Positions 15,330 through 19,679 of a DNA stretch of 64,000 bases are shown here, piece by piece. The DNA comes from Thermoproteota archaeon (GTDB lineage Archaea; Thermoproteota; Thermoprotei; Gearchaeales; Gearchaeaceae), in contig JAJPJK010000004.1 of NCBI GenBank assembly GCA_021324265.1, positions 1-64,000 on the forward strand, in the 5' to 3' direction. Each line of letters opens with the position of its first letter. Positions within the stretch are counted from its first letter, which is position 1. Made by a program: the position numbers and the translations under genes. Under the pieces are notes generated by a model. That model was given only the letters and a program-made list of their open reading frames with translations. It was not told the DNA's origin and made no database searches.

Positions 15330-16142
15330 ATGAGCATAGTAAAGAAAATCTATATGTTCGATTTCGGTTGGCTAGGCGGTGACGGCGGATGGTTCTTGCC
15401 AGGTTGGGGGGCAATGACTTATAGTGATAAAGCACCGCAAAGAGTATGGGTAGAAATTCCTGTTACTGGAGTTCTTATGGATACGGACATAGGCTACATA
15501 GTTTTCGATACAGGCGTTGCTCCAAACGCTTGGCAGACGCATACAAGGGGTGTACTTGAAGCCTTCCCAGTAATAAAGTTTAGCGATGAAAACAGGATTG
15601 AAAAACAACTCAATAATTTAGGTCTAAAGCCAAGCGATATTGCATTCGTGATTCAATCACATCTCCACTTCGACCATGTAGGACAAACAAACATATTTAA
15701 AGATGCTAAAGTCCCCATAATAGTTAACAAAAAAGAACTCCAATCGGCGCTCATGATGCTATGGATGGGCAAGGAGGGAGCTTACCAATCAGCTAATCTT
15801 AATGACCTAAAAGGAGCCAACTGGCTCATCGTAGACTTGCCTATGTTTGAGCTAGCAGAGGGCATAAGGCTTTATTTCTCAGGCGGCCATACCAGCGGTC
15901 ACATGGTATTAAGCGTAAAAACGAAGAAAGGGAATACTTACTTCTTTACAGGTGATCATCTACACTTACCAAGAGAACTTGAGACGGAATCCAAAGGATG
16001 GCTGCTATCGGATTATGATGAATGGCTAACATTTGTAAAACAATTGAAGATTTGGGAAAAGGCAAACAATGCTAAGATAATAATCTGCCACGACCCTGAT
16101 TTCTGGAATAAATATCCCAGAATCCCGACTTATTTAGAATAA
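15330..16142 (+). CDS. MBL-fold hydrolase, N-acyl homoserine lactonase-like
   Basis: This 270-residue protein has the zinc-binding motif HLHFDH (residues 111-116), the later GGHTSGHM histidine and the FTGDHLH aspartate/histidine, so a full dinuclear metal site is likely. The overall order resembles AttM/AiiA-type lactonases. In an archaeon the substrate is probably another lactone or ester. The ATG follows a TATACTTATAAAG box by 20-25 bases. It converges on the SPFH operon, whose last gene ends three bases away. Confidence 0.85.
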   Translation: MSIVKKIYMFDFGWLGGDGGWFLPGWGAMTYSDKAPQRVWVEIPVTGVLMDTDIGYIVFDTGVAPNAWQTHTRGVLEAFPVIKFSDENRIEKQLNNLGLKPSDIAFVIQSHLHFDHVGQTNIFKDAKVPIIVNKKELQSALMMLWMGKEGAYQSANLNDLKGANWLIVDLPMFELAEGIRLYFSGGHTSGHMVLSVKTKKGNTYFFTGDHLHLPRELETESKGWLLSDYDEWLTFVKQLKIWEKANNAKIIICHDPDFWNKYPRIPTYLE

Positions 16143-16144
16143 AT

Positions 16145-16453
16145 CTACTTTTTTCTAAGCATAAAAAATACCAGAATAGATATTATTATGAAGTAAATCC
16201 CTATCAGGAGGAGAATATTTACGAAAACGAATGTAAGAATATAAAAACCCACAAAGAACAGTGTTATCCCCCATATCATATAATAAAGGATGTCTTTTGT
16301 AGCTGTTCCTAAAAGAATAATCGTAACGGATGAAAGTATTATGAAGAAGCCAGTGAACTCAGCTAAATTGAAAGGTCTTAGTCCGGAACCATATATTAGC
16401 AAGAGCACGCCAAGCATTAGGAAAAAGAATAAAAATGAGTAACGTTGGTCCAT
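16145..16453 (-). CDS. small four-helix membrane protein, last gene of the msrA/SPFH operon
   Basis: This 102-residue protein consists almost only of hydrophobic helices (about four) and ends in a basic MLRKK tail. No family is recognised. Its start shares its first base with the last base of the SPFH gene, so it is almost surely co-translated with it. It may give the otherwise soluble SPFH and zinc-ribbon proteins a membrane anchor (inference from gene order). Confidence 0.7.
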   Translation of the reverse strand: MDQRYSFLFFFLMLGVLLLIYGSGLRPFNLAEFTGFFIILSSVTIILLGTATKDILYYMIWGITLFFVGFYILTFVFVNILLLIGIYFIIISILVFFMLRKK

Positions 16454-17469
16454 TATACCAACTTAGCTCCACAGTTTGGACAGAATTTTTGACCTTCACT
16501 CACACTAGCTCCACAATTAGGACATTTCATATCCGAAACTAGCTTTGCACCGCATTCTGGACAGAACTTCGCTCCTGCAGGTACCACATGACCATTGGGA
16601 CACTTCGTAATCTGTTGCAATGGCTTACCGCAGTTGGAACAGAACTTCGCACCTTGCTGATTATTTGCACCGCAATATGGACATGCAACTAAGACTTGAG
16701 TCTGTGGCTGTTGCAACAATGGGGGGATGATTGCAACTCCTGCAGCTACACCTGCACCAGGGCTCTTTCCTAACTCTTCAGCAGCTTTTTGCACTGTCTG
16801 CATTCTCAATACCTCACTTGCGCTTACGCCTGTCTGTATGAAGAAGATCCTATCCCTCCACTCCGGGGCTGTATCTATACCTTCGAACTTTACATCTATA
16901 AGCTCTAAGCCAATCCGCTTGAAAGCCTGCATAAGCATGTTTTTAGTTATAAAGCTTGTCTCATCGAGCTTTCCATAAACATCTTTTAGGCTATACTTAC
17001 TTATTCCTTCAATGAAATTTTGATTGAAATATCCGCGAAGGAATTCCTGAAGCTTAAATGTATCGAATATTGCTTGGCCGCCGACGACTTCATTGACAAA
17101 AAGATTAGGGTCTTCTACCCTAAACCAAAAGCTTCCATGGAACATCAGCGGCGCTAGCTCAACTGTTTGAGCTTGACCTCCGAATTTACCTTGAAACTGT
17201 TTCAACGAAACGAAAATTACATTTGCAGTGAAAGGAACTTTGTCATATCCAGTAATTTTTGATAGAACTTTTGTGAGTAATGGGAGATTTAACGTTGTGA
17301 TTACATGCCTACCAGCCCTGAAAACATCATAAACTTTGCCATCTCTATAAAAGACTGCAGCCTCAAATTCCTTAACGATTAGCTGGCTTCCCCATTCGAT
17401 TGTGTTTATGGGATATCTATAGACTATTTCTACATCGCTTGGATTTACCCACTCAATTACCTTAGGCAT
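16453..17469 (-). CDS. SPFH-domain protein with three C-terminal zinc ribbons (YdjI-like)
   Basis: At 338 residues this has an N-terminal SPFH/virion-core-type domain (about 1-215), a glycine/alanine-rich hydrophobic linker with PPLLQQPQTQ (about 235-257), and then three zinc-ribbon modules. These begin CPYCGANN and end FCSNCG; CPNGHVV with FCPECG; and CPNCGAS with FCPNCG. The layout matches bacterial YdjI proteins, which scaffold membrane-stress complexes. In the middle module the first knuckle is CPNGH, with histidine replacing a cysteine. A GGTGA ribosome-binding site lies about 5 bases before the ATG. It overlaps the upstream gene by 8 bases. Confidence 0.82.
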   Translation of the reverse strand: MPKVIEWVNPSDVEIVYRYPINTIEWGSQLIVKEFEAAVFYRDGKVYDVFRAGRHVITTLNLPLLTKVLSKITGYDKVPFTANVIFVSLKQFQGKFGGQAQTVELAPLMFHGSFWFRVEDPNLFVNEVVGGQAIFDTFKLQEFLRGYFNQNFIEGISKYSLKDVYGKLDETSFITKNMLMQAFKRIGLELIDVKFEGIDTAPEWRDRIFFIQTGVSASEVLRMQTVQKAAEELGKSPGAGVAAGVAIIPPLLQQPQTQVLVACPYCGANNQQGAKFCSNCGKPLQQITKCPNGHVVPAGAKFCPECGAKLVSDMKCPNCGASVSEGQKFCPNCGAKLV

Positions 17470-17968
17470 TTATCTCACCCAATTCATGCAGGATATTTGT
17501 CCTAGCATCAATTTTCGATTCAAGATCCCTTAATAAATTCAATATCCTATCCATTGCAGACTTCAATTCTTCTGCTTTTAAAGATTTAGAACTCAAATCG
17601 GTTGTTTCTTTTCTAAGTGCTTGTGTAGCTTCAATAAGTTGTGAATCATATTTTATCACATCATCCAGCTTATCCTCTCTAACCTTAACTAGATCGAAGA
17701 GACCAGAATAACCAGCTTCAGCTTTATCTATTTTCTGCCACACTTTGTCATACATGAATCTCACATTATCATAGAGCGATCTAAGTTGTTGATCTTTGCT
17801 CAGCTCTTTTAAGTTATTGTATCCAAAATTCTCGAAATCCTCTTTACTACTTCTCAACAAATTCGTTATAGTTGATCTGATAAGTCTATCGCTCTCCCTC
17901 CTAACCTCCTTTAATTTGTATCCCCGATAGCCGGGTATATAAGATGCTATCTTCTCAATTAAGCTCAT
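17462..17968 (-). CDS. helical protein of the msrA/SPFH operon
   Basis: This 168-residue protein is mainly charged and helical. The N-terminus has a short amphipathic IEKIASYIPGYRGYKLKE stretch, followed by coiled-coil-like segments rich in Lys, Glu, Asp and Leu. There are no cysteines or membrane helices. I do not recognise a named family, but the position between a zinc-ribbon protein and a YdjI-like SPFH protein is that of YdjH or a short PspA-like partner in bacteria. It overlaps both neighbours (4 and 8 bases), which argues for a complex made in fixed ratio. Confidence 0.72.
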   Translation of the reverse strand: MSLIEKIASYIPGYRGYKLKEVRRESDRLIRSTITNLLRSSKEDFENFGYNNLKELSKDQQLRSLYDNVRFMYDKVWQKIDKAEAGYSGLFDLVKVREDKLDDVIKYDSQLIEATQALRKETTDLSSKSLKAEELKSAMDRILNLLRDLESKIDARTNILHELGEINA

Positions 17969-19164
17969 TCTTCATGCTTTTTAAAAAGGGACGAAATATT
18001 AAACTTAACTAAAGGTCTGGTTCCTGTTATAACATTCCCTGTTGACTTATCTATTGCAACAAAATATTCCTTTTCATCCCAATTGTATTTAACAACCACG
18101 ATTGGGACATAAATGATTTCGGGCTCCCCAATTGATTCACCCTTTACATTGAAAACAGCGATATTTGAATATTTTTTCTTGAGCATCTCCATAGCCTTAC
18201 TCGTAGCCAATGATACCGCTTCATCCTTATCGAGCTCTATTGCAAGCATATCTGGAACTATTTTAAAAGGCTGCTTGCTTGCTAAAGGAAGCCTATATTT
18301 CTCGATATCAGGCTGAAACTCAGCACTCCTTCTAGCAATTATCGGCAACTCGTATGTTTGATCGATATTAAAGCGCTGCCTTATTGTCCTAGTGACTGGC
18401 GTCTTGTTAATGTATTCAGTTACATATCTCACAGTTTCAATATAACCACTCAATCTAATTGTTAGATTCCATATAGGAACATACTTATCTTCAGTTACAC
18501 GCATGTTAGCGGTTTTAGCTGCCCCTCGCGTTACGAATATTCCTTTTGCGATGAAATCCTCAGCTATCTTAAATGCATCGATATCCATTGCAGGCAATAT
18601 ACCTATTTGCGGTACAGTTTTGGAAGGATCAGTATTGTTTATGAAACCACAATAAGAACAAACTACCAACCATGGTAAAGCTTCACCGCCAATGTTAAGC
18701 GGTGCACCGCAGTTCTGACACTTCTCAAGCTTTATCCTCTGCTCTTTAGGAGTGAGTGCCTGCTTCGCCTGTTTAGCATGCTCTTCATCGATCTTCTTAG
18801 ATATGTTCTCCAAGTTAAGCTTCTCTTTAAAAGGGATGAATTTAGTTTTATCAGGAGCTAACTCATATATAGCTTCGTCTAAAAAAGGAATAATCTCATC
18901 TTCAACGTAGCCTTGCACTACGAGGTCACCGTTATCATTGGAAAAGACAACGTTTCCTTTCTTGAAAAACCCTCTCTTCCAATTCACAACAGATGTTATC
19001 TTACTTGACTCAATGTTAGTAAAGTAACCTCTAGCCTGAAGTTTCTGCGAAAGGATTTTTGCTACTTCATTGTGATCAATTGTTAATCCTTCATAACGAA
19101 CCATCAATTCATAAATATTCAATTGACTTATAAGCGAATCTATCCCTTTAAATAAGCGCCCCAA
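17965..19164 (-). CDS. zinc-ribbon protein, possible YdjG counterpart
   Basis: The protein has 399 residues. After an N-terminal region of about 150 residues it carries one zinc ribbon: CQNCGAP (Cys near 152 and 155) and later CSYCGF. The following 220 residues are beta-rich with no recognised domain and no clear membrane helix, ending in a lysine-rich tail. Bacterial YdjG has a TFIIB-like zinc ribbon and sits beside YdjH and YdjI, so this may be a diverged soluble relative; that is inference from context. Start and stop overlap those of msrA (25 bases) and the helical gene (4 bases). Confidence 0.72.
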
Positions 19165-19679
19165 TATTTTTCAAGCTTCAAAAGCTTAGGTTCTATTACG
19201 AAAATGCAATACGGATAGTTTGGGTTTTTATCGTAAAAATCTTTATGATAATCTTCTGCAGGATAAAACTTCTCGAATTTCTTGAGTTCTGTAACGATTG
19301 GCTTTTTATAATGTTTCTGGGCTTCTTTTATTTCTTCTTCAGCGATTTTCTTTTGTTCATCGTTCAAATATAGGATAATTGATCTGTATTGCGTTCCAAC
19401 GTCATTGCCTTGCCTGTTGAGCGTAGTTGGATCGTGAATTGTGAAAAATATTTTGAGTATCTCACGATAGGATATAACTTTTGGGTCAAAAATTATCTTA
19501 ACAACTTCTGCATGACCTGTTTGATCTGAACATACATCCTCATACGTTGGGTTCTCCATCCATCCTCCTGAATAACCTGGTTCAACACTTATCACTCCTT
19601 TAATTCTTTTGAAAGCAGCTTCAGTGCACCAAAAGCATCCCCCTCCTAGAACAGCAATTTCATAGTTTTCTTGCATCAT
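19140..19679 (-). CDS. msrA: peptide methionine sulfoxide reductase MsrA
   Basis: This 179-residue protein shows the MsrA core: [11 protein letters not shown] with the catalytic cysteine at residue 15, [24 protein letters not shown] and the [19 protein letters not shown] signature. It reduces methionine-S-sulfoxide in proteins, using thioredoxin-like donors. It is the first gene of the five-gene operon ending at 16145, and its 3' end overlaps the zinc-ribbon gene by 25 bases. The tight linkage suggests the rest of the operon belongs to an oxidative or membrane-stress response. Two adjacent ATGs (19679 and 19676) are both possible starts. Confidence 0.95.

Follow-up and report, generated by a model that had tools for sequence, protein, structure and literature searches.

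A conserved four-gene operon in Thermoproteota encoding an SPFH protein with helical, zinc-ribbon and small membrane proteins, with msrA as a likely chance neighbor

Many archaea of the Thermoproteota carry a conserved operon of four genes, which encode a zinc-ribbon protein (ZnR), a helical protein of 168 residues (hel168, or hel), an SPFH protein and a small membrane protein of 102 residues (tm102, or tm). We describe it here in a window of 64,000 nucleotides from a Thermoproteota archaeon (assembly GCA_021324265.1, contig JAJPJK010000004.1, positions 1 to 64,000), in which a methionine sulfoxide reductase gene, msrA, stands just upstream and is most likely an unrelated neighbor that lies there by chance. 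SPFH proteins exist in most organisms, and their archaeal partners are poorly known. SPFH-zinc-ribbon proteins have already been described in some archaeal ESCRT loci (PMC10936438) and in a Bacillus operon, while our search of the literature, which was incomplete, found no description of the four-gene archaeal set. The set spans Bathyarchaeota, Caldarchaea/Aigarchaeota, Nezhaarchaeota, Brockarchaeota, Thermofilales and Thermoproteales. Its genes are candidates for the upkeep of membranes in archaea that lack PspA, and the presence of hel-SPFH pairs in cultured Pyrobaculum and Thermoproteus makes the idea testable.

In the window, an ORF check found five consecutive ORFs on the minus strand, in the order msrA (19140..19679), ZnR, hel (17462..17968), SPFH (16453..17469) and tm (16145..16453). 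A sequence-only reading had described them as a single operon overlapping at every junction. The ORFs and the overlaps of 4, 8 and 1 bases at the ZnR/hel, hel/SPFH and SPFH/tm junctions are real, but the overlap of 25 bases between msrA and ZnR is likely a start-codon artifact. The start codons of hel and SPFH agree with the conserved N termini of their relatives. By hydropathy, the 102-residue protein has four hydrophobic helices, and ZnR, hel, SPFH and MsrA have none, as the sequence-only reading had seen for the small membrane protein and for ZnR. The tm gene finishes at a distance of 2 bases from the end of a convergent gene on the opposite strand, which encodes a metallo-beta-lactamase-fold protein (15330-16142, plus strand).

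The conservation of the four genes was surveyed in 118 other hel-containing loci, including the best 80 named ones, which come from Bathyarchaeota, Calditenuaceae/Caldarchaeum, Nezhaarchaeota, Brockarchaeota, Geothermarchaeota, Thermofilum, Thermoproteus, Pyrobaculum and others. These named loci are the best 80 matches to the hel query, and collecting them through hel inflates counts of linkage; they hold SPFH in 77 cases, the small membrane family in 67 (its most distant members, gathered by HMM iterations on hydrophobic sequences, rest partly on adjacency to SPFH), ZnR in 52 and msrA in none. Among the other 38 loci, the tm family is found in 21 and ZnR in 18. The hel-SPFH linkage is near universal across the 118 loci, with a median gap of 3 bases and, in 102 of 115 cases, a gap no longer than 100 bases. 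Within the best 80 named loci, the exact order of the window (ZnR>hel>SPFH>tm) occurs in 19; other orders are tm>hel>SPFH (17 loci), hel>SPFH>tm>ZnR>ZnR (8) and ZnR>ZnR>hel>SPFH>tm (6). The surroundings of these loci are shuffled, the commonest other neighbor family occurring in 20 of the 80, while membership of the module is stable. ZnR or tm is unlinked or was not found in some relatives; therefore, not all four genes are obligatory.

A survey independent of hel, with SPFH as the query in 81 genomes of the window's class, agrees with the picture drawn from the named loci. At a loose cut-off, hel168 was detected in 53 and SPFH in 58 of these genomes. With SPFH required at an E value below 1e-10, both genes are present in 50 genomes, SPFH only in 1, hel only in 3 and neither in 27 (Fisher P = 5e-17, uncorrected for relatedness). 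Strong matches to the ZnR profile were obtained in some 40 of these 81 genomes, usually two genes in tandem; the window genome has a single copy. Thus, the gene order survey gave a divided answer to the five-gene proposal: four of the genes are conserved beyond this genome, and msrA is not. In four genomes of one family of the class (L125, L126, L127 and L128; family f7), hel and SPFH are much diverged and there is no clear ZnR pair, and in some of them hel and SPFH are oppositely oriented and about 3 kb apart, which suggests a reduced form of the module.

The closest known parallel to the SPFH gene and its surroundings is the PspA-YdjGHI system of Bacillus subtilis. There, YdjI, an SPFH protein with a zinc ribbon, is soluble, needs two membrane proteins, YdjG and YdjH, and recruits PspA to the membrane (PMC8581546), and YdjG combines zinc ribbons, a YpeB-related domain and a membrane segment (PMC11237479). 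The 338-residue SPFH protein of the window belongs to PF13421 (Band_7_1), with 89 bits against a cut-off of 24 (3.9e-25), and its three C-terminal zinc ribbons, already recognized in the sequence-only reading, also score over cut-off; the PF13421 profile matches in B. subtilis as well. Like YdjI, the archaeal protein has C-terminal zinc ribbons and no membrane helix and is encoded together with a zinc-ribbon protein. In contrast, the module lacks PspA and the TPM protein YdjH and has hel and the four-helix protein instead. PspA (PF04012) exceeded the curated cut-off in none of the 81 class genomes, and the search of the window genome gave a single, stop-containing match of 21 bits, below threshold, so that the earlier statement that PspA is absent is borne out at this cut-off. 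No TPM domain was detected in hel, ZnR or tm.

The resemblance of ZnR to YdjG is looser. ZnR (17965..19104 with the start codon preferred below) comprises an N-terminal alpha/beta domain, one CxxC...CxxC zinc ribbon (codons 18649-18720), with cysteines that are invariant across 82 aligned sequences, and a beta-rich C-terminal region; the ribbon matches weakly, and Pfam yielded no further domain. Its subfamily is soluble, with members of some 400 residues that lack membrane helices (relatives in L131, L139, L140, L160, L133 and L136); in these relatives the gene lies between hel and SPFH. The closest relatives of the window protein, of about 415 residues and with up to 170 bits, are encoded by L131:7511-8758, L140:7510-8763 and L160:1600-2865, each an additional ZnR gene of its locus. 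Many other members of the family are tandem genes whose products carry C-terminal hydrophobic helices, reminiscent of the YdjG membrane segment, which the window ZnR, unlike YdjG, does not possess. Just before these helices, a PepSY/YpeB signal appears below threshold (best E value, 0.005). The likeness of ZnR to YdjG thus consists of architecture and this subthreshold match, YdjG being compared by its published description only. The YdjG/YdjH/YdjI parallel drawn earlier therefore holds clearly for SPFH and loosely for ZnR, and it fails for hel, which is not YdjH and carries no TPM domain. The AlphaFold2 model of ZnR (pLDDT, 87.9) was compared with solved structures by Foldseek, which returned no homologue of the body of the protein beyond generic zinc ribbons and coiled coils. 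Pore toxins were among the best matches, at a meaningless probability of 0.1, and Flpp3, the Chk1 KA1 domain and CENP-N reached probabilities of 0.85 to 0.99 over about 100 residues, yet with E values of at least 0.06.

Neither hel nor tm has a Pfam match over cut-off. The hel protein carries the conserved motifs IPGYRGYK.KE.RRE.D and GY.G.FD.VKV, and its model (pLDDT, 85.8) shows four long helices of 22 to 36 residues each, packed as a bundle. All 37 hel proteins scanned match the NCBIfam family NF047596 (LIMLP_15305; best, 3e-18), but at 34 bits for the window protein and about 66 bits for the best one against a cut-off of 210 bits, and none of 299 Thermoproteota genomes has a match over this cut-off. 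By these profile scores, hel168 is a distant relative of the LIMLP_15305 family and not a member. That family is named after a Leptospira gene, and no description of its function was found in the literature searched. The best 80 matches to hel in named genomes are all archaeal, and a collection of plasmids contained no hel relative and only distant SPFH matches. The tm family shares the core pattern YG.GAL, YG.G and YY..WG, and hydropathy marks tm102 as the module's sole integral membrane protein in this genome.

Taken with the shared SPFH protein and the plausible ZnR, the presence of hel and tm in place of PspA and a TPM protein leads us to propose a tm-anchored SPFH scaffold. On balance we favor, with some reserve, a membrane-associated assembly that would work like PspA-YdjGHI without PspA and YdjH, msrA being a chance neighbor. 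The SPFH protein would oligomerize at the cytoplasmic face of the membrane. Since it has no membrane helix of its own, we propose that the four-helix protein holds it there, helped in relatives by the helix-bearing ZnR pair; the earlier suggestion that the small membrane protein serves as anchor is plausible, given that no other protein of the set is integral to the membrane in this genome. The hel protein, encoded directly before SPFH, would be the usual SPFH partner, a role suggested by the position of its gene only, and the zinc ribbons may provide protein-protein contacts or a regulatory hook. The four proteins may form a complex that maintains the membrane, and we infer that it could act under stress. 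Experimental work on any member of the module was not found in the literature searched. A search with PADLOC gave no match, and the possibility of a defense system was therefore dropped. A bolder form of the proposal, which we put forward tentatively, is that the hel family and the four-helix protein constitute a distinct, widespread archaeal machine for membrane maintenance that replaces PspA in those Thermoproteota that lack it, with hel as a new family of SPFH partners.

Instead of countering membrane stress, the module could sort proteins or form vesicles, its zinc-ribbon and arrestin-like proteins acting as cargo adaptors in a way comparable to the archaeal loci that combine SPFH with adaptin and ESCRT components, but we consider this unlikely. 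In its favor, the Meth_adaptin ESCRT loci of archaea encode SPFH proteins with a coiled coil and a zinc ribbon in an operon (PMC10936438), and an arrestin-like protein with a zinc-ribbon-like motif is encoded beside the module in 16 of the best 80 named loci. The Meth_adaptin loci, however, also encode Vps4, ESCRT-III and adaptin-appendage proteins, and no such protein was noticed at the module; no recurrent Vps4 or ESCRT-III family was seen among the neighbor families listed, and no arrestin-like gene was identified at the window locus. The arrestin-like gene deserves mention for itself. It adjoins the hel-SPFH pair, often tail to tail with SPFH, and its product bears the zinc-ribbon-like motif at the C terminus; examples are L146:8633-9229 (PF00339, 1.7e-6), the 15 other named loci and, in addition, L098:7879-8412. 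The protein is possibly a further partner or a cargo adaptor.

It is also quite doubtful that hel168 is a diverged polymer of the PspA/ESCRT-III type, in which case the module would amount to a hidden PspA system in archaea that seem to lack PspA. Its helical nature, the lack of PspA over cut-off in the class and the position of its gene beside SPFH, which recalls the pairing of pspA with band-7 genes in several bacterial phyla (PMC9239133), would fit this idea. However, PF04012 is absent among the families listed for 81 hel members, and the model shows four helices of 22 to 36 residues rather than the long ESCRT-III hairpin. Furthermore, a fold search of the PDB with the model gave nothing at an E value below 0.001, with no ESCRT-III or PspA structure among the best 50 matches and no solved homologue beyond generic coiled coils. 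Neither sequence nor fold comparison thus linked hel168 to PspA or Snf7. An identity with YdjH was rejected as well, no TPM match being listed for any hel member. The comparison of the 168-residue protein with YdjH and PspA by profile and fold searches, one of the checks that the sequence-only reading had named, produced no TPM, PF04012 or significant fold match.

The remaining question is whether msrA belongs to the unit. Its product is a genuine MsrA, as first read, scoring over the cut-offs of PF01625 (1.8e-67) and TIGR00401 and carrying a GCFWC active site. However, msrA lies near the module in none of the 118 other hel-containing loci, and among 61 relatives it occurs in only three genomes, all in the window's family: that of the window and two of a sister genus. 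In the latter, the orthologues are 71 to 74% identical and stand elsewhere, between unrelated genes, and searches of these two genomes (89% and 67% complete) for hel, SPFH and ZnR gave no match. Because the sister-genus msrA is found elsewhere without genes of the module, the pairing in the window is local and unconserved, and nothing was seen that would tie msrA to the module in function.

The junction between msrA and ZnR points in the same direction. The overlap of 25 bases hinges on the most upstream TTG (19164), which gave the 399-residue ORF of the first reading (17965-19164). We aligned the N-terminal domain with five relatives (L131, L140, L160, L133 and L136, some of them truncated at the 3' end); since four of the five begin at or within 2 residues of M21 of the window protein, the fifth beginning 11 residues earlier, the true start is likely the ATG at 19102-19104. 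With this start, a gap of 35 bases follows the msrA stop codon and contains the TATA-box-like sequence CTTATAAG (19127..19134, minus strand) at -30..-23. TATA-like hexamers occur at -33..-25 before 12 of 35 gene starts of the window, control offsets lying farther upstream giving 2 to 6 of 35, and the motif class occurs at 3.6% of random positions. Such spacing would be expected of an archaeal promoter whose leader is very short, and a site at this enriched distance makes it probable that the four genes have a promoter of their own. A scan for sigma-70-type promoters and terminators stayed at shuffle level, a type of model that is uninformative for archaea. The place of msrA at the head of the operon, as first proposed, thus loses its footing with the neighborhood survey, the sister-genus genomes and the likely separate promoter, and the oxidation theme, for which the analysis found no evidence apart from the adjoining msrA, goes with it. 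That all five genes would be cotranslated against combined membrane and oxidation stress, MsrA repairing methionines of membrane proteins, is very improbable: although the five genes share one strand with minimal spacing and read-through from msrA across the 35-base gap is possible, the overlap vanishes with the homology-supported ZnR start, a TATA-like box is suitably spaced from that start, and msrA keeps company with the module in this genome only.
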